Shown here: positions 39,790 to 63,248 of the stretch, one piece after another | Position numbering within the stretch: position 1 is the first letter of the stretch | How the letters are laid out: each line of letters opens with the position of its first letter | Assembly (NCBI RefSeq): GCF_949628265.1 | Contig: NC_088787.1 | Span: 5,880,501 to 5,944,500 of the forward strand | Reading direction: 5' to 3' | Source: Cloeon dipterum | Taxonomy: Eukaryota; Arthropoda; Insecta; Ephemeroptera; Baetidae | Length of the DNA stretch: 64,000 bases | Notes under the pieces: model-generated | What the model saw: the letters and a program-made list of their open reading frames with translations, nothing else | Database searches by the model: none | Told to the model about the DNA's origin: nothing | Translations under genes and position numbers: made by a program

Positions 39790-42700
39790 ATGGGTTCTTT
39801 TCTGGCGATTGCTTTTTTGGTCCTCCTCGCCCAAGCTTCTGCCAGGGTTAGTAGAAATGTTTAACATTTTTAATTTAAACAGTTTTTTTCCCATAGGGTT
39901 TTCTTTGATCAATGGTCAATTTTTCTTAGTTACCTTGGTTTGTTAATTTTCACTCCCAATTTTGATTGACAAAATTTCTTCTGCTTTTTGTTACACCTAT
40001 TTAATTTTATATACAAAAATTTGAAAAATCTTTGTATATTTATTTTATTTTGTTTATTTGATACAAAATAAATAATGAAATTTTTATTTTGTTATTTTTA
40101 TTTTTTTTCTTATAAGTTTTAAAGTTTTTTCAAACAAATTCGCTCCCCATTCCGCAATAGAAATATTGAAATAAATTTTTTTAAGGTTTTCATTTTCAGT
40201 ACTTCACGCAACGAATAATAATGTTCACAAACGAAATGATTAGTTTTATTTTTGTTAAAATTCGGCCGTTCTTCCGATCGTCGACCACGACCCCTCATCG
40301 GACAGGTCACGCACGGCGCTTCGACCTTGGGTACCATGACGACCTTTTTCAGGGTACCCCGACCTGAGATCCGTTCCGAGGCCAGATTTTCATGCGTTTT
40401 CAGTAATTTCGAATACATTTGGCGATGATTTTTTACTCTTGCCTATCACCGACCTTCCTCAGGTCACGCATGACCTGAGCTCGGGCCTTGGACTGTTTAT
40501 CGTGGTTTTGCCACCGCTGTCTTTTAGTCTTTTGCTCAATTTCTGGCTCGAGACGGACAGTTGCCCGAATTTAATATTCTTGATCTACGTCAAAATACAA
40601 ATTAAATTTAAAGTTTTTTCCAGTATAAGTTTCTAAGTCTTTTATTTGGTTGAAAAGTTCAACATAAATATTATATTTTTTTAATTCTGTTTCGCAAATT
40701 TTTCAAGGCGACGGACGAATCAAAGAATGAAGCTGAGAAAGTCGAGGGCCAGTTTGAACGGCCTGCAATAAAGGAATACACGCTGGAAGAACTGTTGGGA
40801 GAGGACAATGGTATCAAAAAGAGCGCCTCATTGGAATCCTGGATTCAGAATATTGAAACAGTTACAGGCATTGCGGCGCTCGAAGCCGCGAACGAGAAGC
40901 GAAACAAATTCGGAGAAAAAGGGTCTGCAACAACGGTGGTCAAGGAAGGTGCAAGAATTTTGGGAGGAAGCAGTGTGACGGAAGGACAGCACAGCTACAA
41001 CGTTCTTGTGGTAACCTCACCTTACAGTGGCAGCACCATTTACTGCGGAGGCGCATTGCTGACCCCCCAATGGGTGATAACCGCCGCGCAATGTGTCGCA
41101 GGGTGAGTTCTTTTAGTGCACTCCAATCTCGGTTTCTTAAAAAAATCAGAATTTCAAATGCTACCCACCTTTGTTCTCGTTTTGATCTCCTTTTACCCCC
41201 TGCTCTAATTTAAAAAGGCAAAAAAGTACTTCTTCTCGGGTCTTAAAAATGTAAATTAAATCTACCTAAACATACCATTATTTCAAAATTGAAACGTTCT
41301 ACATTCGAATGAAATGCAAAAGAATATTTTTTTAGTTTTACCAGAGGGGTTGAAATATGGCAAAATGGGGGTGGAGATTGAGCACCGCCCCTAAGCCCTT
41401 CAGCTATAAGGTCAAGACGAGTGTACTTTTTTGTAATTCTGAGGGTAAGAACCCGAGATTTGGGGATGACAAAATATGAAAATCACAGAGCGAAGTCTTA
41501 TACTGATATAATTTACAAAATTCAATTTTTTTTTATTTTTTAAATAAGGAACCAAAAATTATTTGCAGGGCGTCTACAATTAAGGTATACGCTGGTGCGG
41601 TTAGTATGCCAGTAGATGCGGGTACAGCTAAAGATGCAACAGCGAGGATCCATCCTAACTTCGTGCGCAACTTCGCACTGAACGACATTGCGCTGCTCAA
41701 GACGGCTACTCCGTACACCCTTTCAAGTGAGTGAGAACTCCCCGAATCATATCCAATCCCTACAATCAGTTTTACCACCGGTATGTCTGCTTGAGAATAT
41801 AAATTTTGAAAAAATTACCTTTTGGTTTGGTTCCCGAAAATAGCTTTTACAAAAATCTCAAAAATTAAATTAAAAATCTCGGCCTCATTTTCATGAATCT
41901 TAATTAACTGCAGATTTTGACCCGCTTAATTAACTTTCAAAGGGCTTTAAGTGTGTTCCTTTCTGGAAGCCAAGATCATCTCTCTTTGGCTCAATGCTTT
42001 TTTATTTCGAAAAGAAAAACAAAAAACCAAGCGTCTCTCAAATGTTATTTTTTTAATAAAAAATAATTTTATTTTAAATAACGCATGATAATATATTGTT
42101 AGCAATTTAACAGCTCTTCGGACAAATGTTTCCAGGCACCATTTCCACAATTCGACTTTCGACCGAGAGTGTCGGTTCCGTGGAAAACGCGCAGCTCAGG
42201 ACGTTTGGATTCGGTCCTGAAGACAACGGTGAGAAGGAACATTATTCCGAATCTTTCGCTTTTATCTTGTTTGTTTCGTAATTTCAGGTGCTGCTATAGG
42301 AACTTCCTTGAAGTACGTTGACATGTCGAATCTGAAAAAGTCCACGTGTTTGACGCTCACTGCAGACTTTTATGTGGCCTACCCTGGAAACACCGGATGT
42401 TTGAGCACCTCCGTCGCAACGAAAGGATGGTGCTATGTAAGATTTTTTATTTTAATAATTTGTAGTGTTTCTTTTTCTTGCAGTCTGCTTTATATTTGTA
42501 TGAAAAAAGTCAAAATTCAGAGATGCATCTGTTTAAAAATATAATACTATCATGGTGAGATGCTAATTTTTTAAATTTTTTGCAAAACAAAATCAATAAA
42601 ACACAATTTGGAAATTTATGCTCATCGGGTTTCGCAGGTCAACTGTTTTTTACTGTTTCAAATGGTTAACGAACTTGAAATAAACTAAATACGACCTCAA

Positions 42701-43170
42701 ATTTAAAGCTCTGATGGAAAAACAGAAAATTACAATCAAAACGTTTATTACAGACCAAAAACCCCGGAAATCTCTTTTGAGGAGCAAAAAATCAGTCACA
42801 GCCCTGAATAAAATTTTTTAAACTCATAAATATAAGTGTCGCCAGTCATAATGGAGCAAAATCTTCTAATAATCAGGTTGAAAATAAAATATTAAATTAA
42901 TTGCAATATATTTTTTACCTTAAAACCACTTTTTGTTAGCTCAAATTAGGTTTAAAATAGTCCTCAACCCGAATTTCTAACGTTAATCGTGTTTTTCAGG
43001 GAGACACCGGCGCCCCCGTCGTTTACACGAATGACGGAGACTCAACAACCAAGCTCTACGGCGTTAATTCTCAATTTCTGGGCTGTTCGAGTGCTTATCC
43101 GAGCTCGTACACGCTGGTGCGCCCGTACCTCAACTGGATCAGATCGACGACCCTGCTGACGCTCACTTAA
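39790..43170 (+). CDS. Serine protease homologue 1 (His57Gln, Ser195Thr)
   Basis: Seven exons, 39790-39846, 40708-40810, 40868-41102, 41569-41726, 42136-42228, 42288-42436 and 43000-43170, encode 321 residues. Exon 1 is the signal peptide (MGSFLAIAFLVLLAQASA). A propeptide with KEYTLEELLGEDN leads to an Arg83-Ile84 activation site (ARILGG). The chymotrypsin-fold domain has six cysteines in the usual pairs. Catalytic equivalents: Gln128 replaces His57 (TAAQC), Asp171 (NDIALL) keeps Asp102, Thr268 replaces Ser195 (GDTGAP). Asp267 keeps Asp194, which pairs with the new N-terminus after cleavage. I infer a secreted pseudoprotease; related insect homologues act as cofactors or decoys, but no role is shown here. 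The 57-bp intron 40811-40867 is free of stops in this gene and could be retained; the same intron in copies 2, 4 and 5 would break the frame. AATAAA is at 43242. Confidence 0.92.
40235..40620 (+). repeat. Intron-1 repeat shared by SPH genes 1 and 2
   Basis: This block in intron 1 is nearly the same as 45280-45650 in SPH gene 2: TTGTTAAAATTCGGCCGTTC, TTCCGATCGTCGACCACGAC and CTTGCCTATCACCGACCTTC. Shorter relatives lie in intron 1 of SPH gene 4 (about 57430-57510) and in a CCDC93 intron (4195-4290, inverted). It therefore predates the gene duplication and is a dispersed repeat. Confidence 0.7.
41110..41500. mobile_element. Decayed foldback element in SPH1 intron 3
   Basis: Left part (AATTTCAAATGCTACCCACC, TTGATCTCCTTTTACCCCCT) and right part (GGGGGTGGAG, CGCCCCTAAGCCCTTCAGC, AGACGAGTGTAC, AACCCGAGATTTGGGG) are loosely inverted. 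The same block lies in intron 3 of SPH2, SPH3 and SPH4 and as a free copy at 55480-55915. It is absent from SPH5. Confidence 0.6.
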
Positions 43171-43799
43171 TTCATTTTTTTCACTGTCGTTCTGAACAAA
43201 ATGGTGTCGGGCTCATTGTTGCTAAAAATGCAAATTTGCGGAATAAAGTTTGGACATTTTTAATTTATTGTAACAAATAAAATCTATAGAATTGCATGTT
43301 TATTTTAATTTATTAATTACCAATCTGTTTTAATGTTTTTCATTAAAAAAAATCAAACTGACGGCGTTCTTTTTGAAAAAGGTCAATAAATTGTGGTAAT
43401 TACGGAAAATTAATGAATATTACAGGATTTTATTTCTGCATTTGTGTGCGTGCAAAGAGGGAGAACAAAATTTAAAAATGAATTTTCTTTAAAGATCTTA
43501 TTAGTACTTTTATAAGGGCAAATTAAATCAATTTTCCAATCTTTCCTATCTCTAAATAAAAAATATCCGAATTGCTTCTCCAAAGTCCATTTTAATCCCA
43601 TCAATTTCATATTAATTGGCAGTTGCTGCTGAGCCCAGGTAATTAATAAGCTGCAGGCCAAGATGCACAAACCTGCTCCAAGAATCTGACCTGACCTTAT
43701 ACAGTGGCAGCATCCTCTCCGCTATTTTTCGAAGGATTCTTGCTGATCATGCGTGAACATAAATTATATCCCGTTTATAAAATAGCTTCTTCCAAAAAT
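43171..43799. other. SPH1 3' UTR and gap to the orphan exon
   Basis: The first 90 bp hold a 3' UTR block (GTGTCGGGCTCATTGTTGCT, AATGCAAATTTGCGGAAT) conserved after SPH2, SPH3, SPH4 and the headless copy, ending in AATAAA. The rest is AT-rich with nothing supportable. Confidence 0.55.
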
Positions 43800-43947
43800 T
43801 TGCTTTCGCGGAGAGGTGGAGGAAGGTATTTAAAGGGTTAGCGGAGCACAATTCGGTTATTTGCTGCTGCGTCTGCCTCGCCATGCGCTCTTTCTTATAG
43901 GAATAATTGTGCTTTTCGTTCTTCTTGCAAACGTCTCTGCAAATAAG
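43800..43947 (+). pseudogene. Orphan promoter and first exon of an SPH5-type gene
   Basis: GGAGAGGTGGA, the TATA box GGTATTTAAAGGG (43825-43837) and GTCTGCCTCGCCATGCGCTC match the promoter and start of SPH5 (61800-61890). The reading frame is broken: after ATGCGCTCTTTC comes an insertion that produces an immediate TAG stop, although GCAAACGTCTCTGCAAATAAG and a GTAAAA donor are still recognisable. No matching exons follow before SPH2. It is the stump of a deleted or truncated gene copy. Confidence 0.8.
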
Positions 43948-44718
43948 GTAAAATTTATTATACTAACATGTAAAAAAATTTTTAAGGGAAATTTTAGTGG
44001 TTTTCAAAAGCCATGGAGAGGCTGAAAGAGCCTAATAAAAAATATGAGAAATTGTATACTCCTTTTTGAGTTGTGCAAGGGAAATTTTTATTCAACTTGT
44101 CATGTCAGAGAATTCTCTCAATAAAATTGATGCTATTTTTAGCACGTGAATTTTTTAAAGGTTTAATTCAAATGGAGGGTGAGTAATTCCGCAACTTGCC
44201 TCCTCTTTTGGATTTTACTCAGAAATTCCTTCATTTTTTTTTAATTTTATATTTATAATATGAAGAAAAATGGTATTTTACGCATGATAAATTGCGACGA
44301 GCGGGATCGAAATCAAGCTAAAAAACAATTTAATTGTTCGAGATTTCTCACCTCTGATTTTCAATGTGGGGACATTGCTCCTATACTTCATTAAACAAAC
44401 TTTGAAACCGATTGGCTACCTGGATTTTTTTAGATATATCTCCTAATCTTTACTATTTTAAGAAAAGGTAAAAATTTGTAAATTTTTGAACTTTGAATCA
44501 TTGAGTTAAAAAAAATCAGAGGAAAGGAAATTGTTTGAAGAGTTTTCTCGCCCGTTCGCATCAACTTGCAGCCCGTGCAAGGTTGGACGAGGAGTCAATA
44601 GCCGCGCACTCACAATCAGGTACATATATCTCGCGCAGCAGATGCACCTTTCACTCTTTGTTCCTCCTACGCATTTCTCTCTTCTCCTTCCTCATTCTGC
44701 GGAGGAGGATGGCCAAGG

Positions 44719-44727
44719 AAATATAAG
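44719..44727 (+). promoter_or_regulatory. TATA box of SPH gene 2
   Basis: AAATATAAG then CGAGTGCATTTCC, 44 bp before the ATG, the same layout as SPH1. SPH3 (ATATAAG about 50313) and SPH4 (about 56309) carry the related ATATAAGCGTGTGCAGTGC form. Confidence 0.65.
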
Positions 44728-44762
44728 CGAGTGCATTTCCTCCGAAATCATTCGGCGGCACC

Positions 44763-47732
44763 ATGGGTTCTTTTCTGGCGATTGTTTTTTTGGTCCTCCT
44801 CGCCCAAGCGGCTGCCAGGGTTAGTAGAAATGTTTAACATTTTAAATTTAATAATAATTTAGGGAAAATCTTTCGAATAGGGTTTTCTCGGATCAGTGAT
44901 TTATTTTCTAATTCAGCCTTACAAAAACCTTAGTGTTTTTTACTTTCGATAATCAATTTTTAAAAAATTATACAAAGAAATTTCGTTAGATTTTGCAATA
45001 ATAATGTTACACACCTTCATGCTTTATTTAATTTCTAAAAATCCAGAAAACGTGTATAGTTAAATATTTTATACAAAAGAAATGAACAATATTTATTCTC
45101 TTGTTATTTTTTATTTATTCCTTATTACATTTTTATAATGTTATAAAATATGGCGATAGAAAAAATTTAATTTTCATAAGAATTTCATTTTGGCCTTGTC
45201 AAAACATTTTGCCCTCACAGAAAAATTAAAAATAATTTTGTTCACGCTTTTTCGGCTTCGCGTGACGCGTTTTGTTCAGAGGCGAAAATGGTTTTATTTT
45301 TGTTAAAATTCGGCCGTTCTTCCGATCGTCGACCACGACCCCTCAGCGGACAGGTCACGCGCGGCGCTTCAACCTGGTGACCCTAATGACCTTTTTCAGG
45401 GTACCCCGACCTTAGATCCGCTCCGAGGCCAGATTTTCATGCATTTTTAGTAGTTTTCGAGTACATTTGGCGATGATTTTTTACCCTTGCCTATCACCGA
45501 CCTTCCTCAGGTCGCGCACCACCTGAGATCGGACCCAGGACTGTTTTTTCGTGGTTTTGCCACCGCTGTCATATATATTTTAGTCTTTTGCTCGATTTCT
45601 GGCTCGACGGACAGCTGCCCGAATTTAATTTTCTGATCTACGTCAAAATAAAATTAATTTGAAATCATTTCCCAATAAAAAAAACAAGGCAATTTGGTTT
45701 AAAACATCCAGAGAAATATTTTATTTTAAAATTTTATGCTGCACCAAATTTTTAAAGGCTACAAACGAATCGAAGAATGAAGCTGAGGCCCAGTTTGAAA
45801 GACCTGCAATAAAAGAATACACGCTGGAAGAATTGTTGGGAGAGGACAATGGTATAAAAAAATACCACCTCATTGGAATCCAGAATTCAGAACATTGAAA
45901 CAGTTACAGGCATTGCGGCGCTCGAAGCCGCGAACGAGAAGCGGAACAAATTCGGAGAAAAAGGGTCTGAAACAACGGTGGTCAAGGAAGGTGCAAGAAT
46001 TTTGGGAGGAAGCAGTGTAACGGAAGGAGAGCACAGCTACAACGTCTTTGTGGGAGCCGCACCTTACAGTGGCAACGCCATTTACTGCGGGGGCGCACTG
46101 CTTTCCCCCCAATGGGTGCTAACCGCCGCGCAATGTGTCGCAGGGTGAGTTGCAAAAAATCAGAATTTCGAATTCTTCCCACAGTAAGACTCGTCTTGAT
46201 CTCCTCTTACAAAAAATGTACTTCCCGGGGCATAAAAATGTATTAAATTTACCAAATCTCACTCTAAACTACCAACACATTCCACAATTTTAAAAATAAA
46301 AACGCCAATGTTATTTCTGTTTTTAGTTTTTTTGAAATCAATGAATTATGGGGTTGGAGTGTAAACAACGCCTTTGAACCCTTTAGCTAGTCAGGGAAGG
46401 ACAAGATGAGTCTATTGGAGTGTTGAATTTGTAATTCTGATGGTTGGAGCCCGAGATTTGCAGTTGACAAAATATAACAGTCACGAAAAAAAATTGGTTT
46501 TTCCAATTTTAAGGGAAATTTCTCACAATTAACAAATCTTTAAAAACATTTTGAAAATTCACAAATACCCATTATTTGTAAATTGATTCGCAGGGCGACT
46601 GAAATCGTAGTATTTGCTGGTGCGGTTTCTATGCCACAAGATATGGGTATTTTAAAAAATGCAAGAGCGACGATTCATCCTGGCTTCGTGCGCAATTTCG
46701 CGGTGAATGACATTGCTCTGCTCAAGACGGCTACTCCGTACACCCTTTCAAGTGAGTGATAATGGTTTTTTTGACACCCCCTGAATAATTTCATATTGCA
46801 AAAATTAGTTATTGATATAATATAACATTGAAATTTTTCATTAGTAATTTAGAATGTTTGCTTTTAATTGTGGTTCGATTTGATTTAACAGCTAGCCCTT
46901 ATTCTGACAAAAATACCGTCCACAGGCACCATTTCCACAATTCGACTTTCGACCGAGAGTGTCGGTTCCGTGGAAAACGCCCAGCTCAGGACGTTTGGAT
47001 TCGGTCCTGAAGACAACAGTGAGAAGGAACATTATTCCGAATCTTTCGCTTTTATCTTGTTTGTTTCGTAATTTCAGGTGCTGCCATAGCAACTTCCTTG
47101 AATTACGTCGATATGGCGAACCTGAAAAAGTCTACGTGTTTGACACTCACTACAGACTTTTATGTGGCTTATCCGGCAAACACCGGATGTTTGAGCACCT
47201 CCGTCGCAACAAAAGGATGGTGCTATGTAAGTTTTTTTATTTTGAGTCTGATTTACATTCGCTGTTTTGAAATTCATGGATATCAATTAAAAAAATTGTA
47301 AGACGGTCTAAAATTCTTGATTAAACCCCAAAAAACACCCCGCATATCTCCTAAAGGGTGAAAATAAATTATAAATCCCAAGTAAAATTTTTCAAGAGTC
47401 ATAAATAATTGTTTAAAACCATTATTTGGCTAAATCTGTTAATAATAAGGCTGAAAATAAATTAATCTGAAAAATTACAATATTTTTGGTTCCAAAAATC
47501 CACGTTTTATGTGAAAAATCCGTCTATAACCCGGATTTCTAAAATTAGTCGTGTTTTTCAGGGAGACACCGGCTCTCCCGTCGTTTACACGAATGACGGA
47601 GACTCAACAACCAAGGTCTACGGCGTTAATTCTCAATATCTCGGCTGTTCGAGTGCGTATCCGAGCTCGTACACGCTGGTGCGCCCGTACCTCAACTGGA
47701 TCAAAGCGACGACCAAGCTGACGCTCACTTAA
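44763..47732 (+). CDS. Serine protease homologue 2 (His57Gln, Ser195Thr)
   Basis: Exons 44763-44819, 45758-45851, 45910-46144, 46594-46751, 46926-47018, 47078-47226 and 47562-47732 encode 318 residues. Exon 1 gives a signal peptide nearly identical to SPH1. The propeptide lacks three residues found in SPH1 (AEAQ for AEKVEGQ) but keeps KEYTLEELLGEDN. Activation would occur at Arg80-Ile81 (ARILGG). Gln125 stands at His57, Asp168 (AVNDIALL) at Asp102, and Thr265 (GDTGSP) at Ser195. The exon 2 acceptor is AAAG, an uncommon base before AG. Exon 5 and intron 5 are almost identical to SPH1 while exon 4 is strongly diverged (EIVVFAGAVSMPQDMGILKN). Polyadenylation signal AATAAA is at about 47836. A second, intact copy of the terminal exon lies 1.2 kb downstream and could serve as an alternative 3' end. 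Confidence 0.92.
46145..46490. mobile_element. Decayed foldback element in SPH2 intron 3
   Basis: Same family and position as in SPH1: AATTCTTCCCACAGTAAGAC near the left end, CAACGCCTTTGAACCCTTTA and GACAAGATGAGTCTATTGGA near the right. Inheritance with the gene duplication is the simplest explanation. Confidence 0.55.
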
Positions 47733-48954
47733 TTCATTTATTTATTCACTGTCGTTTCTGAACAAAAAGGTGTAGGGCTTATTATTGCTAGAATTTAAAA
47801 TTTGTTGAACATATTACAAGGAAATTTTGTTGTTGAATAAAATCTACAGAATAGCTTGTTTATTATATTTGAATTTATTAATTCCCAAAACTCTCCTAAT
47901 GTTTTGCAATTATTTGCCTTTATTTTTGTATTGGTTGCAGTAAAATAAAAAGCTTGATGGTTAACTGTTGATATTTTATTTAAATGGTTTATGTTTATAC
48001 ATTTTGGTCATTATTCGAAATAAAAAAGGACGGACAGTTATTAAAAATTACAGGCGAGAAATAATTAGTAAATAATTATTTCTTTATTTCTTTATTAGTA
48101 AATAATTATTTCCAATGTTCCATTCGATTAGCAGAATCCAAAAGAACAAAGGGAAATTAAAATTGGAACAATTTTTCAATAAATTAATGACAAAGTTTTT
48201 TCACGACGAGCTACATCAAAATCAAGCAGAATATAATATAATTAATTTTTTTTAGATTTTTAATAATTAAAAAGTGCATTTTTAATGGAGGACAGTACTC
48301 CTGCTAAATCGATACAAAACTTTTATAACCAATTAAAACAGCAACCTGGGAAATGTTTAATATTTTTAATTTAATTTTAGGGAATTTGTCAAGAATGTGT
48401 AAAAATCTATAATTTTAAAACGAAATAACATTGAGATAAAATCCTATACACATTTGCCGAAATTCAGTGATATTATATATTTAAAAAAATGTATATAAGT
48501 TTATCATAAGGAAGCTATAATTTTTTTAACCAAAACTATCGAAAAAGAGTCATTTTTTTAACAATCTTGAAACTCCCTCCTTTAGCAGTCAAATAAATTA
48601 GACTCCTAATTTTTTACTCTTCCTCGGTAAAGAACAAAATATAAACTAATTACTTGCTCAAATTCCAGGATCTGACTGGGGAACACATAGAACAAAAGGC
48701 ATATAAATTTTTGCTAATGTTTATTTCGGTCCAAAAAACACCTGAGAGCGCAAATCTCCTGAGAGGTGAAAAAACAATTACAATAACCATGAGTACAGTT
48801 TTTCAGAATTCATAAATAATTGTTCAGAATCATAATTGAGCTAAATTTGCTCATAATCAAGTTAAAAATAGAATATTTTTGGTGCCTAAAAAGCACGTTT
48901 AATGTGAAAAATCCGTCCTCAACGCGAGTTTCTAAAATAAACTGTATATTTCAG
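47733..48954. other. SPH2 3' flank and remnants of a deleted copy
   Basis: After the SPH2 3' UTR, 48180-48350 matches the distant upstream flank of SPH2 and SPH3 (CACGACGAGCTACATCAAAA, GGAGGACAGTACTCC, ACCTGGGAAA). By about 48690 the sequence already matches intron 6 of the complete genes (AAAACACCTGAGAG, TCATAAATAATTGTT). The whole body of a gene copy is missing between these points. Confidence 0.55.
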
Positions 48955-49125
48955 GGTGACACTGGCTCCCCTGTCGTTTACACCAACGACGGAGACTCAA
49001 CAACCAAGGTCTACGGCGTTAATTCTCAATTTCTGGGCTGTTCGAGTGCGTATCCGAGCTCCTACACGCTGGTGCGCCCGTACCTCAACTGGATCAAAGC
49101 GATGACGAAACTGACGCTCACTTAA
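48955..49125 (+). pseudogene. Headless SPH copy: intact terminal exon only
   Basis: The 171-bp exon follows a TATTTCAG acceptor and encodes GDTGSPVVYTNDGDSTTKVY, then GVNSQFLGCSSAYPSSYTLV, ending in TLT and TAA with no damage. Exons 1-6 of this copy are absent; flanks on both sides match the normal duplicated unit, so an internal deletion removed them. The frame's integrity means either recent loss or use as an alternative last exon by SPH2, whose exon 6 donor is in the right phase (phase 0). Thr is at the Ser195 position, as in SPH1-4. Confidence 0.85.

Positions 49126-50006: not shown

Positions 50007-50054
<48 letters not shown>
50007..50054. repeat. (TG)24 microsatellite
   Basis: Forty-eight bases of uninterrupted TG repeat, about 310 bp upstream of the SPH3 start codon. 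It could influence promoter structure but nothing shows that it does. Confidence 0.95.
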
Positions 50055-50057
<3 letters not shown>

Positions 50058-50364: not shown

Positions 50365-53300
50365 ATGCGCTCTTTTCTGGCGATTGTTCTTTTGGTCCTC
50401 CTCGCAAATGCTCATGCTAGGGTTAGTAGAAAAGTTTGAAATTTAAATTTAATTATTTTTTAGGGAAAATCTTTCGAATAGGTTTTTTGGATCAGTGCGT
50501 GGTTCTATTTTTCTAATTGACCGTTGCGAAAGCCCATACTGTTTTACTATGGACTATCTAAATTGTGATTGCATTTTTAAATCCATGTATATAAATCTCG
50601 CATTACACAAATTTTCGTCCTATCTTCCTCAACCTGTTACGCCAGTTTTATATTAATTTAAATTAAAAATTAAAAATTCATAATATATTTTATAATCTAT
50701 GCCTTCGTAAGAACCATTACAAAAATCGTTAGAAGTGATCTAATCTCATGGTGATTTAACAAAAATGTTGGAATTTTTAAGATTTTCCACAAAATTTCGC
50801 CACTATAGAAAAATTTAAATTATATTTTACGATATTTCCTTAAATCGAAAAAAATCATAGAAAAATATCCACTAATAATATCCTATATAAGCATTAAAAT
50901 TTAAAATCTCCCATTTGGTTCACAACACCACGACAGGAACATATATATTATACATATTTAAATTATTTTTATTCACGAGACTTTTCAAGGGTACGGATGG
51001 AACGAAGAGTGAAGCAAAGGGCCAGTTTGAAAGTCCCGCAATAAAAGAATACACGCTGGAAAAACTGTTGGACGGGGACAATGGTATCAAAAAGAGCACC
51101 TCTTTGGAATCTAGAATCCAGACCAAATTGTTAAAATAGTTACAGGCATTGCGGCTCTTAAAGCAGCGGAAAAGAAGCGGAACATCGCCAGAAAAATAAA
51201 AAAATGGTCTACAAAAAGGGTTGTCAAGAAAAGTAGAAGAATTTTGGAAGGAACCATTGTGAAGTCCGGAGAGCACGCCTACAACGTTCTTGTGGTAACT
51301 GTACCTTACAGCGGCAGCAAAATTTACTGCGGAGGCGCGCTGCTGTCCCCTCAATGGGTGCTAACCGCCGCGCAATGTGTCGCAGGGTGAGGAGTTCTTT
51401 TAGTGCACTGCAATCTAGGGTAAAAAACAAACAGAATTTCAAATTCTAGTCATCATTCCTCCTCTTACCCCCTGCTCTAATTTAATAGCAAAAATGTGCT
51501 TCCTCTGAGGGCTTTAAAATATATTAAATACACCAAATCTCACTTTAAACTAGTATAACACATCTATTTCATTTCAAAATTAAAGCTGGAATGTTTTAAC
51601 AGTTTTAAGAGTTTTCAAAGGGGTTGAATTATGGCGATTTGAGGGTGGAGGGTGAGCACCGCCCATAAACCCTTCAGCTAGTCAGGGGCGGTCAAGACGA
51701 GCCTAATTGTCTTACAAAACGAAAAAATGCTACTTTGAAATTTCCAAACGTGGTCATGGGATAACTTTTGAACACACTTTGAAAACTCAAATTTGGGAAA
51801 AACGTCATTATTTTTGGATTTTGTAAACAAAGGAGCCAAAAATGATTCATATAGAGCGTCTGCAATTCAAATTTTTGCTGGTGCGATTAATTCGCCAGTA
51901 AATTTGGGTAAAGCTAGAGCTGCAACAGCGACGATTCATCCTGGCTTCGTGCGCAATTTCGCGCTGAATGATATTGCGCTGCTCAAGACGGCTACTCCGT
52001 ACACCCTTTCAAGTGAGTGAGAACGGTTTTTGGAGACTCGCTGAATCATTTCCAATCCCCAAAATCAGCTATGATAATTTTTACTACCGGTATATCTGCT
52101 TGGGAATATACAATTTGAAAAAATTTTTGGTGCTCAAAAATAGATTTTTAATGCTTTCACTATGAATATTTAAAAAATTAATTAATGCAATTTTTCTTTT
52201 GATCTAACGATTTTTTGCACCTCTGGAAGCGAAGATCATCTCAAATTTGAAACAAGTGGCATTTTTGCCTTTCCAAGAACTGTATTATTTGTGTTTTACA
52301 ATGATAAGAAAAATTATGCGCAAATTTGCGTTATTTATAGAGGAGGCCATCTAGAAATAAATTTCTTTTTGTTCCTGCAGATACTTGATTTTTTTTCTTT
52401 GAGAAAATTCGGAATTTAAGTGAAAATCACGATTAAAACAATGCTAATGATTTTCTCAAAAATTTAAAGTACTTTTCCTATTGCGTAATTTTTAACTGTG
52501 CATGATTCAGAACCTAATCTGTATATGTGTTTTAAAAGATTTTGCGGGGAAATTCACAATCGTACACGACTCTTCAAAACTGTTTGTGTACGTTTTTAAT
52601 TGTGGTTCGAAATGAACTGCAATTTTTGATGCTGCTGCAATTTGACAGCCCTTCGGACATATGTCCACAGACACTATTTCCACAATCAAACTTTCGACCG
52701 CGAGCGTCGGTTCCGTGGAAAACGCTCAGCTCAGGACGTTTGGAATCGGCCCTGCTAATGACAACAGTGAGAAGGACAACCCGCGCATCTTTCGCTTTTA
52801 TTTATTGTGTGTGTTTTTCATAATTTCAGGTGCTGCCAAAGGAAATTCCTTTCAATTCGTCGACATGTCGAACGTGAAAAAGTCCACGTGTTTGACACTC
52901 ACTGCAGACTTTTTTGTGGTCTATCCTGCAAATACTGGATGTTTGAGCACCTCAGTTGCAACGAAAGGATGGTGTTTTGTAAGAATTGTCTAAATTGTAA
53001 TAATTTTTAGTCCCTTTTTTGGAGTCTGACTAACATTGGTAGGAAAGGACTTTTGCTTATCCGATTTTCAGGGAAGTCTATTTAAAAAATATGTATAGAA
53101 TTGTATCATGAGACGCTAAAAATTATTATTTTTTAACCCAATAATCGAAAAAACAGTCTCGATAAAGTTTGCTCATTGGCTTTAGTTGATCATCAAATTA
53201 GACTTGTATATTTGTACTGTTCCTTTGTAAAGAACTAGACAAACTAATTAATTAAGACCTCAGATCCAAAGTTCTGGTGAATAAAAAAAACAGAAAACGA

Positions 53301-53711
53301 CGCTTTAAATCGGTGAATATATTTTAAAGCCATAAAACACCCCCAAAAATCCGCTGAAGGGTGACAAATCAATTAAAACCCTCAATATATTTTGCCGGTA
53401 ATGTAAAAAACATTTCGTAACCATTAAATATGCTCTGAATCAGGTTAAAAATTATTATTTCTGAAAATTGCTATATTGCTAAAAATCATCTTCAAAATCC
53501 GTGCTCAACCCGAATTTCTAAAATTAATCGTGTTTTTCAGGGTGACACTGGCTCCCCTGTCGTGTACACGAATGACGGAGACTCATCGACCAAGGTCTAC
53601 GGCGTTAATTCTCAATTTCTGGGCTGTTCGAGTGCGTATCCGAGCTCCTACACGCTGGTGCGCCCGTACATTGCCTGGATCAAATCGACGACCACGCTGA
53701 CGCTCACTTAA
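50365..53711 (+). CDS. Serine protease homologue 3 (His57Gln, Ser195Thr)
   Basis: Exons 50365-50421, 50990-51083, 51146-51386, 51855-52012, 52671-52766, 52830-52978 and 53541-53711 encode 321 residues. The signal peptide is MRSFLAIVLLVLLANAHA. The propeptide is the most changed in the cluster: KEYTLEKLLDGDN, then a Lys/Arg-rich stretch (KKRNIARKIKKWSTKRVVKK) that leads to Arg82-Ile83 with ILEG instead of ILGG. That basic run offers extra sites for trypsin- or furin-like processing. Gln127 is at His57, Asp170 at Asp102, Thr268 (GDTGSP) at Ser195; six domain cysteines are kept. Exon 4 begins after an unusual ATATAG acceptor but stays in frame. Exon 5 carries one extra codon (GPANDN). Intact throughout, so I call it a gene, not a pseudogene. 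Confidence 0.91.
51420..51775. mobile_element. Decayed foldback element in SPH3 intron 3
   Basis: It carries AATTTCAAATTCTAGTCATC at the left and GAGGGTGGAGGGTGAGCACC, then GCCCATAAACCCTTCAGCTA, towards the right, as in the other intron 3 copies. Confidence 0.55.
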
Positions 53712-55479: not shown

Positions 55480-55915
55480 TCTTTTGCACCACCAAATCTC
55501 GGATTCTGATCGTCAGAATTGCAAAAACTACCCACCGTTAGACTCCTCTCGACCTCCACTAAGCAGCTAAACTATTTATGGAGTGCAAACCCCCATCCCC
55601 TTTTAACCCCATTGCTACCAATTTGATAAAAAAATTAGCTTGTTTCCCCATTTTCTTTAAATGGGATTAAAATTATCCTAAAATCCTTCTAAATTATCAC
55701 CCCTGCGTCCATTCCTTCCAAACTTGAACAGAAAAATGATTTTTAAAATTGAATTTAAGTATACAAAAAAGCAGAGCTATATAATATTTAATTTTTTCAA
55801 GGGGTTAAGCAACCTAAGGGTGGAGGGTAAGCACCCCTAAACCCTTCAGCAGATCAGGGGAGACCCAGACGAGTCTAACGGTGGGAAGTATTTGCAATTA
55901 TGATCTTGCAGGATG
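55480..55915. mobile_element. Foldback element, free copy
   Basis: Inverted arms of about 100 bp: the left arm has AATTGCAAAAACTACCCACC and GTTAGACTCCTCTCGACCTC, the right arm has GACGAGTCTAACGGTGGGAA and TATTTGCAATTATGATCTTG. The arms flank an AT-rich middle of about 200 bp. It is the clearest copy of the family found in intron 3 of SPH1-4 and shows that the family transposed independently of the genes. No coding capacity. Confidence 0.75.
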
Positions 55916-56359
55916 GGTAGAGTAAGTTCTATTCCAAAATAATTACGCGTCCCGGCCACTCAGTTTTTTCCTACTCTGATCAATTGCTAATTGCTGGGTC
56001 CGCTGATCCCGCGCGCAGCCTTGAACGCTGGTCGCCTTGAAATTTCGGGAGTATTTAAAATCAGCTCTTTTCGCGCATTTATCACACCTGCATCCACAAA
56101 GCGCGCACGACATAGATCAATAAACTTTCCTTTTTTACAAGAGGATAAGAGATTTTTTTTTGCCCAATTCACTTGCAATGCGCAAAGGTTGCGGAGGATC
56201 AGTTGCCGCGCACGAAGGTACATACATTTTACGCTCCTCGCTGTTGCTCTTTATACACACATTCCTTTCTTCTCCTTCCCAAATCTGCTGGAGGAGCATG
56301 AGCAAGGTAATATAAGCGTGTGCAGTGCGAAAATTGCTCCAAAACCTTTCGGCTTCACC

Positions 56360-59300
56360 ATGCGAACGTTTTTAGCGATTGGTCTTTCGGTCATCCTCCT
56401 CGCCCATGCTTCTGCTTTGGTTAGTAGAAATATTTTAGTTTTCAATTTAAACAATTTCTTGGATCAGTGGATTTTTTATTTATTTTTCTAATTGCCAAGG
56501 GTTCGTTTCTATTTTAATTTACTTCCGCTGCAGTTATTTAATTCTCAAACCTGCCACTTAAATTATTTCTTTTGATGGGTTTAAACCAAAATTCAGTCGA
56601 GCCAAAATTGCTTTGAAACTTTTTAACAAAAATTTTTATTTTAAAAAAATCTAAAAGATTGGTGGTCCGTGTAAACAACACTTTCAAGGCGAAAAATTGC
56701 TTGTTTTCGTGGAATGTTTGATTCATAGTTTTGCCTAAGGCAGAGTAAGCCGCAGCACGCGGCTCGCACAAAGTGTCGCGCCGGCTTTTCACAATTTATT
56801 GATTACTTTTTTAGATCCGAAGAAATTACTTACAAATTTTCTGTTGATTTTTTATCTTCCTATACCTATTACACCAGTTTCATTATTTTAAATCAGAAAT
56901 TTTATTTGTTATGTATTTTTAATTTGGTTTGTACCGATCTTTACAATAAGGAGAACCAACCAGTTCTTATTTGTTATTGCTGGTGTTCTGTAAAAAGGCA
57001 AGGTTCGCAAAAACCCGCATTTTTCCAGAAAAAAAAACTGCATATCAAAAAATAATTTTTTGCGGGTTTTTCTGCAATTTTGCGCATTTTTTCGATACAC
57101 TTATATTATGCATTTTATTGGTCGATAAAATTGCCAATTGTTTCACCAAAAGACCGAAAATTCTAACAATTAATCGTAAATCTCCAAAATTTCACACTTT
57201 TTTTGGCGAGTAATGTGACTTTTTCGGGGGTTAAATCGGAAAAAATGCGGAAATTCCAAAAACTGGTAGTTTTTTCCAGCTGTTTTAACGTTTTTGCAAA
57301 ACTCCAGCGGTGCATTTTTACGCATTGCAAAATTAGCGAACTCTGCAAAATAGGTTGTTAATTGAGTGACTTGAAATTCTCATCGGGCTGGGAGGCGCAC
57401 CGGTGTGCCGTCACGCCACTTTGCTGGTTTTCGCACCTTTCCAACGGCCAGGATTTTACTCCCTTGCCTATGACCGACTTTCCTCAGGTCGCGTGCCTTG
57501 AGGACTGTTTTTTTGCCATTTTTCCAATTTGAATATTTTGGTCGATTTCGTCCGAAGAGCAGGCGCAAAACGCCTATTAATGGCCACTTGTAAATATAAG
57601 AATATTTATTTGGTTTGTACAAAGAAATAACACATTTTTTAATTTATTCCTAAAAAGTAACACTATAAAAATTGCTAGATGTGTGGATTTTTTTATCGGT
57701 TTTTGAGTTTTTCCCATATTTAATAAAAAAATCCAAAAATATCCTACATTAATTGAGGCAATATAAGTCTTAAAATTTTCCTTATGGTTATAAAAATATC
57801 AACAGGACTTTTATAAATTTTACGTGTTCCACAAAATGTTCAAGGCGACGAACCAATCTAAGAATGAAACTGAGAAAGTCGAGGGCCAGTTTGAAGAGTC
57901 TGGAATAAAAGAATACACGCTGGAAGAACTGTTGGGAGAGGACAATGGTATCACAAAAAATAAAAATACCACCTCATTCGAATCCGCAGGAATCAGAATA
58001 ATCAACCAGTTACAGGCATTGCGGCGCTCGAAGCCGCGAACGAGAAGCGGGAAAAAATGAAAGAAGAAGAAAGTTCTGCAACAACGGTGGCCAGCTCAAG
58101 TGGACGAATTTTGGGAGGAACGGCTGTGACGGAAGGACAGCACGCCTACAACGTTCTTGTGGTAACCGTGCCTTACAGTGGCAGCGACATAACCTGCGGA
58201 GGCGCTCTGCTGTCCACCCAGTGGGTGCTAACCGCCGCGCAATGTGTCGCAGGGTGAGTTGCAAAAAATCAGAATTTAAAATCGTCTTGATTTTCCTCTC
58301 ACCCCCTGCTCCAATTTTAATAGCCAGGACGTGCTTCCTCGGGGCTTAAAAATATAAAATTAAATTAATCAAATCTCACAAATAATTTTTTATTTGAATG
58401 AAACGCAAAAAATTGTTTTTAGGTTTTCCAAAAAGGGGTTGAAATGTGGTATTTTGGGGGTGGAGGGTTAGCACCGCCCCTAAACCCTTCAGCTCTCAGG
58501 GGTGTGCAATTCTGTGTAATTCTGAGATGGTTTCAACCCGAGACTTGGAGTTGGCAAAATATGAAAATCACGAAAAAAAAATGAAAATAATTCAAACACT
58601 TTTTGAAAATTGAAATTTAGGAATAACATTATTTTTTACTTTGCAAATAAGGAGCCAAAAATGATTCGCAGGGCGTCTTCAATTACGGTTTATGCTGGTG
58701 CGGTTGGTACGCCAGTAGATTCAGGCACTTCGAAATCTGCAACAGCGAAGATTCATCCGAAATTCGTGCGCAATTTCGCGCTGAACGACATTGCGCTGCT
58801 CAAGACGGCTACTCCGTACACCCTAGGAAGTGAGTGACATAATTAAGGGTTTGATTTTCTCCCTCCTTTAACTCTCTAAAATTAGTTATTGATTAGGGGC
58901 TATGAATTTTAGACGGGGTTTTTTTTTTGCCAAAATAGTCGATTTTTTTAGATTGTTTCTTAGGCGGTTTTAATTTTCATTGTGTCCTTAGCGTTTCATT
59001 ATATATTTCACACAAATTCATGTTTAATTTTATGTTTTTTCTGAGCCAATTTACAGATAAATTTAGATTGATGATTAATTTTAAAGGAAAATCACTGGTA
59101 TATAGTTTTTTGTTCAATCGAGCAAATTCATTAATAGAAAGTAATGGTCGATTATTTGGACGGGATTTTAAGAAAATGAAAATTTTAAGTGATTTTATTT
59201 AATTACTTGTTAGGAAATGCAGAAATTCCAGATTTTGAGGCCCGGGATTTTTTCATAATTCCAAAAAATTAGAAAAAATAAATTCTTAAAATCAAAGTCG

Positions 59301-61143
59301 GACTGCAACTTTTGATTGCGTTGAGATTTTATCACAAAACTTTGACTACCCGACTTAGATTTTCTTCCTGAACAACTTTCCCTATCCTGAAAAGGTTGCA
59401 GGCCAAAAGTCAAGATCACATTTTGCGACCTTTTCTGAGAAGTCGATTTTTTTATTTAATTTTTTTATTTACACAGTCAAATTGTAGCCTGTGAAATTCT
59501 ATGCAAGTAAACAAATTTTCAGAATTGCAGTTTCGTGGCAATCAAAGTTAGAAGTTTTGAACGCGGCTCGAATCCGTTCTCCCGAGCATGACATTTAATT
59601 AGAAAATGTGCCCGTCAATTAAAAATCGATTTTTCCATGTCCTGTTTACCTCAACGCACCGTAGGAATCGAAATGGGACTACCAAAAATTGATTCTGACA
59701 CTCAGATTCTTACCCTGATATAACCCTGAGGGTTGAATTGCGAAAAAATGCGTAAAATTGTCAAGTTTGGTTTCAATTCACTGGCTTTTGACCCATCACA
59801 GCTTAAATTTTGTTATGAATATTTTTCACAGCATAAAAATCACGTTGTTGGAAAATTTTGCATGCCAAACTTAACTATTTAGACGGTTTTATGTGTGGTT
59901 TAAATAGCTTAAAATTGCATGATTCGTGCTAATTTGATATTCCCACTATGATCTGAAGCTTAGAAAATAGTCAATCGACCGTCTAAAATTCACAGCCCTA
60001 TTTATTGATAATTTTGATATAATTTTTAAAGTGTGTATTAGCTAGAGAATCTAAAATTTGAAAAAATACTAAAGTAATTTCGAATAAGCTTTTAATCATT
60101 GTTTGAATGAATTTTATTTTTAGATGCTTTCGCAATTTAACAAAAAAAAAATAAAAATAAATAAATTAATGTCCACAGGCCTAATTTCTACAATTAAACT
60201 TTCGACCGCCGGCACCGGTTCAATGGAAAACGCGCAGCTCAGGACGTTTGGATTCGGCCCTGAAAACAACGGTAAGAAAGACATCCCGCGCATCTCTTTC
60301 GCTTTTACATTGTTTTTTTTTCGTAATTTCAGATGCTGCCATAGGAGAAACCTTGAATTTCGTCGACATGTCGAACGTGAAAAAGGCAACGTGTTTGTCA
60401 CTCACTGCAGACTTTTTTGTGGTCTATCCTGCAAACACCGGATGTTTGAGCACCGCAGTCGCGACAAAAGGATGGTGTTTTGTAAGAATCTTCTAAATTG
60501 TAATCAATTTTAGTGTTTTTTTTAGATTTGTAGAAAACAGATTTTATTAGCTTAGCCGAAATCTAGAGAAATCTTTTTTAAGCCAAATAAATAATTACAA
60601 AAATTGTCTCGATAGAAAAGTTTTGAAATTTGCTCGTTTGCTTTTAGAAGACCGTATATTTTTACTTTTGCTTGATTAACTAATTTGGACCTCAGATTTT
60701 AATTTCTGATGGTGAAATAATAGAAAACAACATTAAAATATGTTTATTATCCCAAAAACCACACCCGAAATCCCTCTGACGGGTGAGAAATTGTTTAAAA
60801 CCCTCTTTAAATTTGTCAAAAGTTATCATTATTATGCTAAATCTGCTTTTAATTTGGTTAAAAATGATCATTTTGAAAAATTGCGATATATTTCGGGGTT
60901 TAATCCACGTTTTAGGTGAAAATCGGCTTCAAAATCAGTCCCCTAATTTCTAAAATTAATCGTGTTTTTCAGGGTGACACCGGCTCCCCTGTCGTGTACA
61001 CGAATGACGGAGACTCATCGACCAAGGTCTACGGCGTTAATTCTCAATTTCTGGGCTGTTCGAGTTCGTATCCGAGCTCGTACACGCTGGTGGGCCCGTA
61101 CATTGCCTGGATCAAAGCGACGACCAAGCTGACGGTCACTTAA
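56360..61143 (+). CDS. Serine protease homologue 4 (His57Gln, Ser195Thr)
   Basis: Exons 56360-56419, 57845-57947, 58016-58253, 58672-58829, 60179-60271, 60333-60481 and 60973-61143 encode 323 residues. The signal peptide is MRTFLAIGLSVILLAHASA. The propeptide keeps KEYTLEELLGEDN; the short intron 57948-58015 is required, because reading through shifts the frame. Activation at Arg85-Ile86 (GRILGG). Gln130 is at His57, Asp173 at Asp102, Thr270 (GDTGSP) at Ser195. The gene is the longest of the cluster: intron 1 (1425 bp) holds a full GGTTCGC-end repeat and intron 4 (1349 bp) holds a hAT-like insertion. Exon 6 begins ATGCTGCC after CAG, giving Asp in place of Gly at the splice codon. The protein ends ATTKLTVT. 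Confidence 0.92.
57000..57345 (+). mobile_element. GGTTCGC-end repeat, best complete copy
   Basis: About 345 bp in SPH4 intron 1. It opens AGGTTCGCAAAAACCCGCAT and closes GCAAAATTAGCGAACTCTGC, so the ends are short inverted repeats around GTTCGC. Inside are TTTGCGGGTTTTTCTGCA, TTTTTTTGGCGAG, TTTTTCGGGGGTTAAATCGG and TTTTTCCAGCTGTTTT. Fragments of the same family occur at about 7130, 8376, 9172, 33228, 35957, 37076 and 49815. There is no coding capacity, so I class it as a MITE-like element. Confidence 0.7.
58262..58600. mobile_element. Decayed foldback element in SPH4 intron 3
   Basis: TTGGGGGTGGAGGGTTAGCA, CCGCCCCTAAACCCTTCAGC and CAACCCGAGACTTGGAG identify the right part. The left part is short. 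Same intron and orientation as in SPH1-3. Confidence 0.55.
58886..60009. mobile_element. hAT-like non-autonomous element in SPH4 intron 4
   Basis: The left end reads TAGGGGCTATGAATTTTAGA and the right end, inverted, TAGGGCTGTGAATTTTAGAC, a terminal inverted repeat of about 22 bp with two or three mismatches. The flanks carry TTATTGAT at 58886-58893 and again at 60002-60009, an 8-bp target duplication as made by hAT transposases. The 1.1-kb interior has no transposase frame. The insertion explains why this intron is far longer than in SPH1-3. Confidence 0.82.
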
Positions 61144-61823
61144 TTCACTGCTGTCGTTTCTGAACAAAAAGGTGTCGGGCTTATTGTTGCTAAAAATGCA
61201 AATTGGTGGAATATTCATTTATTAGTTTCAGATCTGGCTTTATGTTTTGCAATTTTTTGGATTTTTTAATAAAAGATTTATCATCAATGTGTTGTTTTCT
61301 TAATATGTGTGAGTCAAATTTTTTTGAATATCAATATTGCTTTGTGTTTTTGTTATTTAAAACGATTAAAAAGCTTTTATTTACCACTCTGGAGGATAAA
61401 ATGCAACATCAACTACAATCAAAATCGTCCAGATCTGCTTAAAAGTTCAAGAATAGGAAATTTTATTTTTTAATTTCCTCCCGAAATTATTTCCAAAAGA
61501 CTTGGCGTTTTTAAATCTCGAGGGAAAAATCTAGCAGGGAAGTGTTACATTACAAACAGTTGAAAAAATTGAAAATACGAAACTTAACTATCATTATGCG
61601 GTTTTTTGTTTGTGCATTAATTGTTGAAATCATTAATTTCGAATTTTAAACAAAAACTACTTTATAAATTTATAGCATCAGATAAATTTTATTTCTCTGA
61701 TCTTTGAGTCGGTCCCGGTGTAAAAATGCACCGAAATCAAGTCTCGGGATTCTAAAAGGAGCGCGTGGATTTAATAAAAAAAAAAAATACCACTCCTGCG
61801 TTTGGCGGAGAGGTGGAAGAAGG
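61144..61823. other. SPH4 3' flank and gap to SPH5
   Basis: The conserved 3' UTR block follows the stop (GGTGTCGGGCTTATTGTTGC, AATGCAAATTGGTGGAAT). The rest is AT-rich with no supportable feature until the SPH5 promoter block begins near 61795. Confidence 0.5.
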
Positions 61824-61878
61824 TATTTAAAGGGTCCGCGGAGCACCAAGTCGGTTGTCGACTGCAGTCTGCCTCGCC
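61795..61878 (+). promoter_or_regulatory. SPH5-type promoter
   Basis: CTCCTGCGTTTGGCGGAGAG, the TATA box GGTATTTAAAGGG (61822-61834) and TCCGCGGAGCACCAAGTCGG lead to the ATG 55 bp after the TATA start. The block is almost identical at 63864-63950 (SPH6), and a decayed version stands at 43800-43882. It differs from the ATATAAGCG promoter of SPH1-4, so the cluster has two promoter types. Confidence 0.75.
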
Positions 61879-63248
61879 ATGCGCTCTTTCGTAGGAATCG
61901 TGATTTTGGTCCTCCTCGCCAACGTCTCCGCAAAGGTGAGCTTGATTTATTTTCTATCAGTGCGAGGTTAACAAATAAATTGTATTTTAGGATGCAGTTA
62001 GAGTCGAATTACCAGCTAACACGGTAAATCTCAGATTTAAAATATTTGATCTTTATACGTGCGAGTTTTATTTTTTAAAGGAAAAACTGGAAAAGGAGGC
62101 AGTGCCGGTGAACAAAACTGAAGAGAAAGAATACACCTTGGAAGAGCTGTTGGGAGAGGACAATGGTAGGTAAAATTCGGAACACTCAGAAATTGAATCC
62201 TAAAATTCTAAAATTAGTTACAGCAATCGAAGCGTTATTAGAGGCCGATAAGAAGCGGCACAACTCCACTCAAGCCTTGGCGGCTGCACTGGCGGCTGCA
62301 GGAAGCAAATCGGCCGAGGTGGTCAACAGAATATTAGGAGGAGATTTAGTTGTCCCAGGAGAGCAAACCTTCAACGCTTTTCTTGTAACCGTACCAGTGA
62401 GTGGGCCAGCTAGAATCTGCGGAGGTGCATTGCTGTCGGCGCAATGGGTACTCACCGCCGCCCAATGCGTCGCTGGGTGAGCACAATAATTAATCTTTTC
62501 CCTTGTTCAATTCGAACCGAGTGATTTCGCAGGTCGGCTTTAATCCAGGTAGTAGCAGGCCCGTCGACGTCGGTTGGCGTTCCGTTCGTCCATCCCAAAT
62601 TCGTGCTGAATTTTCTGTTAAATGACATCGCGCTGGTCAAGTTAGCAACACCCACCACGCTCGGAGGTAAGCCCCGCAATTGATTCCCTGCTTCTTTTCA
62701 ACTGACGCATTTTAAAGCTTTTGCTTCGACTATCCGGCTCTCGACCGCCACTACCACCAGCATGGACAATGTCCAGCTCAGGACCTTTGGCATTGGCGCC
62801 AGTGATAACAGTGAGTCAACGAGTAACTCTCCATTTTTTTTAACTAATGTCCGACTAAAAATTGCAGCCATTGGTGTATCGGGACCTTTGCAATTCGTCG
62901 ACATGACGAATGTGAAAAAGTCCGAGTGTCTGTCACAAACTGCAAGCTTCTTCGTCGCCTACCCGACGAACACTGGATGTTTGAGCACCGCAGGTGGAAC
63001 CAAAGGATTTTGCTCTGTAAGACTATTTTTAGATTTTTTTCAGTTTAAAATTATTAATTGCCTAAATTTCTTAGAGTGACGCTGGCTCGCCTGTCGTGCA
63101 CATCGATGAAGCAGAAGGCACGACTACACTTTACGGATTGAATTCCCTATCCCTGGGCTGCCCGAGCCAATATCCCAGCGCCTACACTCTGGTCCAGCCG
63201 TACATCACCTGGATCAAATTGACGACTAATCTGAAGACATTAACGTGA
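61879..63248 (+). CDS. Serine protease homologue 5 (His57Gln, Ser195Ala)
   Basis: Eight exons, 61879-61935, 61991-62023, 62081-62165, 62224-62476, 62533-62666, 62718-62810, 62868-63016 and 63075-63248, encode 325 residues. All introns are 50-60 bp, so the gene is much more compact than SPH1-4. The signal peptide is MRSFVGIVILVLLANVSA. A 33-nt extra exon (DAVRVELPANT) is not seen in the others. The propeptide keeps KEYTLEELLGEDN, then has an Ala-rich stretch before Arg94-Ile95 (NRILGG). Gln139 is at His57, Asp174 (LNDIALV) at Asp102, and Ala271 (SDAGSP) at Ser195, so both nucleophile and base are gone. The loop after the Gln is about eight residues shorter than in SPH1-4. AATAAA is at 63275. 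It represents a separate branch of the cluster and lacks the intron 3 foldback element. Confidence 0.92.

Follow-up and report, generated by a model that had tools for sequence, protein, structure and literature searches.

The window analysed here is a 64,000-nucleotide stretch of the Cloeon dipterum genome (C2:5880501-5944500, in a genome of ~190 Mb on 10 contigs), in which positions 39790-63248 of the plus strand hold a tandem array of five complete genes, G1 to G5 (Table 1). These are real genes for secreted proteins that resemble digestive enzymes of the S1 protease family, and they belong to a larger family, spread over three arrays, in which no modelled member keeps the catalytic Ser195.

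Gene structure and residue states in the window

In hand-built splice models each of the five genes has seven exons, with GT-AG introns throughout and intron phases (0, 1, 2, 1, 1, 0) that are identical in all five. The predicted proteins are 314-323 residues long, of which the prepropeptide takes up 80-85 and the mature chain 231-239. Signal peptide, activation site (Arg followed by IL[GE]G), Asp102 and Asp194 are all kept, the mature chains have exactly six cysteines, and every protein carries TAAQC and NDIAL. In the Ser195 region G1 reads GDTGAP, G2-G4 read GDTGSP, and G5, which has lost Gly193 too, reads SDAGSP. Judged by these residues, the window proteins are almost certainly unable to cut protein. 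The coding region of the propeptide is interrupted in each gene by an intron of 57-68 nt; that of G1 (57 nt) is free of stops, and read-through is possible.

PF00089 (Trypsin) matches all five proteins (best E 3.8e-33), and Trypsin_2 is the sole other Pfam family at E <=0.1 for the tabulated member, below the cut-off. Crab collagenase 1azz is the top profile match among solved structures (E 1.8e-26), followed by the mite allergen Der p 3. A clip domain is an N-terminal unit with six cysteines; the five prepropeptides contain no cysteine, and the Pfam search of these proteins returns neither a clip match nor any regulatory domain in the propeptide. An earlier sequence-only reading had described five complete genes here with the same changed motifs, uninterrupted frames and retained secretion, activation and cysteine features, and without clip domain, and the splice models, motifs and domain search bear out that description in all five. 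It had also raised splicing that restores His57 or Ser195, and no hidden exon of either kind was found in the window. The TAAHCV DNA pattern has 66 matches in the genome and none in the window, the degenerate D[S/T]G[G/A]P pattern has a single window match, which is G1's own GDTGAP, and the loose A[A/G]HC pattern has three, at 15667, 31769 and, on the opposite strand, 62766.

A family in three arrays

Protein searches of the genome show these genes to be part of a family with three arrays and 34 or more loci: eight genes in C2, G1-G5 among them, seven in C1 and 19 in C5. The array sizes are lower bounds, because the search scores the best candidates only. All 34 loci were modelled, and 33 of the models cover the mature domain or nearly so. 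Outside the window the models come from an aligner with a heavy stop-codon penalty, so the lack of stops in the 34 models is not independent evidence. The comparison set consists of 15 S1 genes of the same genome, picked by hand from many matches (169 at exon level). A separate observation concerns two active-type S1 genes, L078 and L079 (C3:16884700-16889900), which lie in opposite orientation ~3 kb apart and have predicted proteins that are identical over the modelled part.

Position 195 in the 33 models is Ala in ten, Pro in nine, Glu in six, Thr in four and Asn, Ile, Asp and Gly in one each, and in no case Ser, which is present in 15/15 comparison genes; the partial C5_17 has Ala. His57 is missing from 16 of the 33: Gln57 occurs in 15/15 C1 and C2 genes, and of the 18 C5 rows 17 have His and one has Arg, their residue 195 being Glu, Pro, Asp, Gly or Ala. 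Loss of Ser195, not Gln57, is the feature common to the whole family. The earlier picture of a whole cluster with the same His57-to-Gln change thus holds for the five window genes, but these are only part of a 34-locus family of which Gln57 is not the shared mark. The TAAQCV DNA pattern has 19 genome matches, 15 of them in two arrays of the family, and its reverse-read control has 6.

Asp102 is kept in 31 of the 33 models and Asp194 likewise in 31, with Glu in the other two; Cys42, Cys58, Cys191 and Cys220 are present in all, and Gly193 in ten. The new N-terminus is Ile in all but C2_7 and C1_4, which have Leu, and the residue before [IL][LF][GE][GS], the predicted processing site, is Arg in 32 models and Lys in one (C1_6). 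The enzyme L014 has two residues more in the 214-220 segment than the family. Gly, which 12 of the 15 comparison genes have at the 216-aligned position, is absent there from the family (Phe 7, Tyr 6, Ile 6, Ser 5, Arg 4, and Thr, Gln, Asn, His and Met one each). Mature chains are 33-51% identical between the arrays that share a propeptide motif, and C1_7 is strongly divergent. Candidate signal exons were found in C1_1, C1_2, C1_6 and C2_8.

The shared propeptide motif is EYTLE[EA]L, which is present in five of the eight C2 genes and 13 of the 19 C5 genes; G3 has EYTLEKL, and C2_6, C2_8 and all seven C1 genes showed no copy of the motif. In G2-G5 the longer form KEYTLE[EK]L starts at 45812, 51044, 57908 and 62126. 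Searched as a DNA pattern, EYTLE[EA]L has 20 exact matches in the genome. C2 accounts for six of these, one of which lies in a truncated copy, C5 accounts for 13, and one lies elsewhere; the reverse-read control has one match. The motif has outlived the catalytic residues.

Descent

Relationships were examined in a 48-row tree of the 33 family members and the 15 chosen S1 genes, from which C5_17 was dropped, and in a 36-row tree with more columns, from which C1_7 was left out. The 48-row tree puts the 33 family members on one side of a long, fully supported stem branch (100/100) and the 15 S1 genes on the other, which fits loss of Ser195 in one event on the stem. The eight C2 genes form one clade (98/95 in the 48-row tree, 99/98 in the 36-row tree), so that the window genes inherited the change from a common ancestor; the five copies do not count as separate events, and independent losses of catalytic residues within the window are rejected.

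The history of residue 57 is less simple. In the 36-row tree, whose starred branches force two changes, the C5 genes form a clade (100/99) that sits within the Gln57 rows; taken at face value, this would mean either that Gln57 came first and C5 returned to His, or that there were three losses. The fork that sets C1_1-5 apart has support of only 84/75, a tree holding the Gln57 rows together is not rejected (approximately unbiased test, p-AU 0.225), and the base of the 48-row tree does not resolve the history of this residue. Gln57 may have arisen once or more than once. Outside the family, the S1 gene L080 (C4:9833200-9836900) combines Gln57 with GDSGGA and so keeps Ser195; loss of His57 therefore recurs independently.

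Selection

Ratios of nonsynonymous to synonymous substitution (omega) for whole chains were estimated with one-ratio codon models, and twice the log-likelihood difference (2dL) was taken against omega 1. The groups were C2 (8 genes), G1-G4 (4), C1 (5 of the 7), C5a (6, with 5 in the segment table) and C5b (10); C5_16 and C5_19 are in no group and C5_17 was left out of the codon alignment. Omega is 0.43 in C2 (2dL 107), 0.66 in G1-G4 (2dL 7.0) and 0.55 in C5a (2dL 27.7). A null with the transition/transversion ratio (kappa) fixed at 2 gives larger 2dL values (15.5 for C5b, 11.8 for C1), and grid values were used instead. In pairwise counts 165 of 528 pairs have a synonymous distance (dS) below 1, with ratios of 0.25-1.20, and the median over the 498 pairs with finite dS is 0.39. 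Six active relatives, two of them near copies, give an omega of 0.04, probably an underestimate owing to saturation at silent sites.

Divided by segment, the chains behave unevenly. The core (the 57 block, the 102 block and 191-214) has an omega of 0.12-0.38, with omega 1 rejected in all five groups, including C5b (0.38, 2dL 26.4) and C1 (0.37, 2dL 15.8). In the loops (16-41, the 60/70 loops and the autolysis loop) omega is 1.50 in G1-G4 (2dL 3.0), 1.16 in C1 (4.7), 1.15 in C5b (1.4), 0.84 in C5a (1.7) and 0.62 in all C2 (15.2, here for omega below 1); the loop null fixes both omega at 1 and kappa at 1.5, so part of each 2dL may be due to kappa. None of the loop sets in the five groups is significantly above 1, and positive selection on the loops is possible. 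We read this pattern as retention of the scaffold, with surface loops under loose constraint and mostly near neutral. The sequence-only reading had suggested selection for a non-enzymatic secreted role that still uses zymogen activation; omega below 1 in C2 and G1-G4 agrees with this, but the signal weakens in C5b and C1, where the whole-chain values alone (given below) would not exclude relaxation.

Continuation of the array and neighbouring features

The array runs on past the window end with a sixth gene, C2_6, and two further C2 genes lie downstream of it (loci L031 and L032). A long (CT)n repeat occupies ~63649-63758, ~190 nt 5' of the sixth gene's start codon. Two orphan exon copies lie between the genes; the ATG frame of the one at 43883 hits a stop after five codons, and it is a relic of partial duplication. 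Boxes of the TATAAG class are found at -41 in G2, -51 in G3 and -49 in G4 as well as in G1, and the TATTTAAA class of G5 recurs at -55 in C2_6, -43 in C2_7 and -56 in the orphan signal exon, so that there seem to be two promoter classes.

Elsewhere in the window, an open reading frame at 9554-9853 on the minus strand has a cysteine pattern (CPVACPANYAPVCGKN...) that we take to be Kazal-like, and another at 779-1483, also on the minus strand, presumably resembles PRRC2/BAT2 proteins at their N-terminus. The genome assembly as a whole has neither an exact (TTAGG)6 nor an exact (TCAGG)6 telomere repeat, as would be expected of Diptera and of certain parasitic wasps, or of contigs that stop short of the telomeres; no COX1 match exceeded the cut-off.

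Table 1. Features of the pseudoprotease array in the window and the two other arrays of the family. Positions are those of the window unless a contig is given.
Feature	Position	Strand	Description	Basis
G1	39790..43170	+	321-aa secreted S1 pseudoprotease; Gln57, Asp102, Thr195	splice model, motifs, Pfam Trypsin
G1 exons	39790-39846, 40708-40810, 40868-41102, 41569-41726, 42136-42228, 42288-42436, 43000-43170	+		
G2	44763..47732	+	318 aa; Gln57, Thr195	splice model, motifs
G2 exons	44763-44819, 45758-45851, 45910-46144, 46594-46751, 46926-47018, 47078-47226, 47562-47732	+		
G3	50365..53711	+	321 aa; Gln57, Thr195; new N-terminus ILEG	splice model, motifs
G3 exons	50365-50421, 50990-51083, 51146-51386, 51855-52012, 52671-52766, 52830-52978, 53541-53711	+		
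G4	56360..61143	+	323 aa; Gln57, Thr195	splice model, motifs
G4 exons	56360-56419, 57845-57947, 58016-58253, 58672-58829, 60179-60271, 60333-60481, 60973-61143	+		
G5	61879..63248	+	314 aa; Gln57, Ser193, Ala195	splice model, motifs
G5 exons	61879-61935, 62081-62165, 62224-62476, 62533-62666, 62718-62810, 62868-63016, 63075-63248	+		
Propeptide motif of G1	40771..40794	+	KEYTLEEL	pattern scan
TATA-like box of G1	39749..39754	+	TATAAG, 41 nt 5' of G1 ATG; putative function	
TATA-like box of G5	61824..61831	+	TATTTAAA, 55 nt 5' of G5 ATG; putative function	
Orphan promoter and signal-exon copy	43883..43947	+	G5 class; no own downstream exons seen	
Orphan last-exon copy	48955..49125	+	GDTGSP...; no own upstream exons seen; partial duplicate	
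C2_6 (locus L031) signal-peptide exon	63951..64000	+	sixth array gene; runs past window end	
C1 array	C1:4044353-4068372		7 genes; L051, L054-L058; all Gln57 and Ala195	
C5 array	C5:28393249-28486135	-	19 genes; L052, L053, L059-L073	

Comparison with known inactive S1 families

Inactive S1 families of this general sort have been described before in insects and mites. In the beetle Tenebrio molitor 125 homologues are reported, 102 of them given as lacking a regulatory region in the propeptide; His to Gln is the commonest change at position 57 (55 of 125, printed as H195Q within the sentence on position 57), and Thr195 occurs in 21 (PMC11172050). The same source describes 95 homologue transcripts, mainly expressed at feeding stages, the majority of them lacking a regulatory domain and having a small propeptide. 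The earlier statement that known insect homologues usually carry clip domains does not agree with these figures.

As described there, the non-clip homologues of clades A3-A7 are close in kind to the present family: they have a secreted S1A fold, a small propeptide, a trypsin-type processing site and no regulatory domain, Gln57 is common, residue 195 varies, and duplications are multiple; in A5-A7 most have a large aliphatic residue at 216, a further likeness (PMC11172050). The likeness is one of description, and the present family differs in forming one three-array group without any Ser195, with EYTLE[EA]L in many members. In Nilaparvata 25 of 90 genes are reported as homologues, with many genes in tandem (PMC4085338).

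The SMIPP-S proteins of the scabies mite, as published, are a 33-member inactive S1 family found in gut and faeces, with a tyrosine blocking the S1 site in the two solved members and complement inhibition by at least five (PMC4031079). They resemble the present family in being inactive, in the blocked S1 site (here probable) and in acting through parts other than the old active site (here proposed). The blocking tyrosine of SMIPP-S is conserved, whereas the 216-aligned residue here, if it is the equivalent position, varies (Tyr in 6 of 33), and the conserved surface of SMIPP-S lies opposite the old active site, whereas the most constrained segments here surround it. Given the Tenebrio, Nilaparvata and scabies mite families, the contrast with clip-domain homologues does not make this family unusual. 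Two features are less usual: a family of three arrays that lacks Ser195 altogether, and a propeptide motif that is conserved. The literature consulted yields known kinds of inactive S1 families and no earlier account of this one, which is weak evidence.

The fold, Gly189 and the cysteine pattern are those of brachyurin-type chymotrypsins such as crab collagenase 1azz. Unlike these, the family has no Ser195, Gln57 in C1 and C2, no Gly at the 216-aligned position and Ser226 in 28 of 33, and the intact His57/Asp102/Ser195 triad of an active brachyurin-type enzyme is not found.

Proposed function and alternatives

We propose, with a probability of about 0.5, that these are lineage-expanded, secreted, non-catalytic S1A homologues without clip domain that serve as trypsin-processed binding scaffolds acting via surface loops, most likely in the gut lumen. 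The proposal builds on the observed gene structure, residue states, separation from the compared S1 genes, and constrained core with faster loops. A pre-pro-protein would be made and secreted via its signal peptide, a trypsin-like enzyme would probably cut after the Arg, and the processed chain would take up the fold of an activated protease, since Ile16 and Asp194 are either retained or exchanged for similar residues. Peptide cleavage should be absent, because the family has lost its nucleophile, Ser195, altogether, the C2 array has Gln in place of the general base His57, and the oxyanion residue Gly193 is frequently replaced. The S1 pocket would be blocked or changed in most members, and is probably blocked because the 214-220 segment, which forms part of its lining, is shortened and the 216-aligned residue is mostly bulky. 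Surface loops would bind other molecules, and the gut lumen as the site of action would be a guess from analogy with Tenebrio, for whose similar non-clip homologues such a role has been inferred.

Several points weigh against this proposal. The gut location is borrowed from a beetle, and the mature isoelectric points (pI 4.4-9.2 across the family, 6.1-8.9 in G1-G5) are not uniformly acidic, unlike the Tenebrio set as described, which tends to be anionic (mostly pI 4-5). Because the family is two residues short in 214-220, which residue counts as 216 is a matter of how the chains are aligned. A scan of eight C5 genes, for some of which it covered <310 nt of upstream sequence, turned up no signal exon; the C5_17 gene is partial, with an initial model that crossed a stop, and the C1_4 model has an abnormal fifth exon that removes one cysteine. 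Whole-chain omega is marginal in the five C1 genes (0.81, 2dL 3.7) and not different from 1 in C5b (0.87, 2dL 1.7), where pairwise counts put several pairs above 1 (as high as 1.20). Core and loop segments were grouped after their rates had been seen, and the fast segments differ by group, the autolysis segment having an omega of 0.46 in C1 and 0.45 in C5a.

Of the other roles considered, that of decoys is unlikely. Dead proteins would absorb dietary or host canonical protease inhibitors through the old cleft and so spare the active enzymes, and in Tribolium castaneum peptidase inhibitors in the diet are reported to raise ten homologue genes >5-fold (as cited in PMC11172050). The conserved old active-site segments would suit such binding, but the mostly bulky 216-aligned residue, with Gln, Tyr or Leu at 215, should clash with the inhibitor P1 residue, as should Pro, Glu or Asp at 195 in 16 of 18 C5 rows, and the fast segments extend beyond the cleft rim. 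The best-studied insect homologues are cofactors of melanization, the prophenoloxidase (proPO) cofactors, which like the present proteins have an inactive S1 domain but unlike them have a clip domain. A clip-A cofactor of this kind is described (PMC11172050). It has the clip domain, whereas the window proteins have neither a prepropeptide cysteine nor a clip match, and a haemolymph role in the melanization cascade is quite improbable. Secretion in venom, saliva or seminal fluid that blocks protease cascades of another organism or of a mate is conceivable but doubtful: tandem copies with fast loops would fit, but no loop set has omega significantly above 1, and a Cotesia venom homologue reportedly, from the title of the paper on it (PMC4553444), needs its clip domain. 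Venoms do contain serine protease homologues, among them changed-triad homologues in the venom apparatus of Aphidius ervi (5 unisequences, one classed as a venom protein; PMC4035087) and a homologue in Torymus venom (PMC7930282), and the SMIPP-Ss of the scabies mite include complement inhibitors (PMC4031079).

That the arrays are decaying gene copies with little function left is very improbable. An omega close to 1 in C5b and only marginally below it in C1, the orphan exons at 43883 and 48955 and the incomplete C5_17 all point that way; core omega, however, is well below 1 in every group, C5b and C1 included, frames and splice sites are intact in the five window genes, and promoters are alike within each class. 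In G1-G4 Thr195 might still act as a weak nucleophile and leave some proteolysis, for which there is a precedent in Tenebrio SerPH122, a Ser to Thr form reported to have low activity (PMC11172050), but G1-G4 lack His57 too and have Phe or Tyr at the 216-aligned position, and the idea is scarcely credible. An outside chance is given to a different history, in which Ser195 and His57 would both have been lost on the stem and C5 would later have regained His57 from Gln for some reason other than catalysis; the conserved functional element would be EYTLE[EA]L and not the protease domain, with processing releasing a bioactive propeptide and the dead domain as its carrier.

Implications

The three arrays keep different branches of the decay of an active site, with Ser195 gone everywhere and His57 kept or regained in one of them, which makes it possible to test in what order residues were lost and how much constraint a dead active site still has. 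The propeptide motif, having outlasted the catalytic residues, is a part that merits testing. The family also corrects the assumption that insect serine protease homologues of this sort are mainly clip-domain cofactors of immunity.

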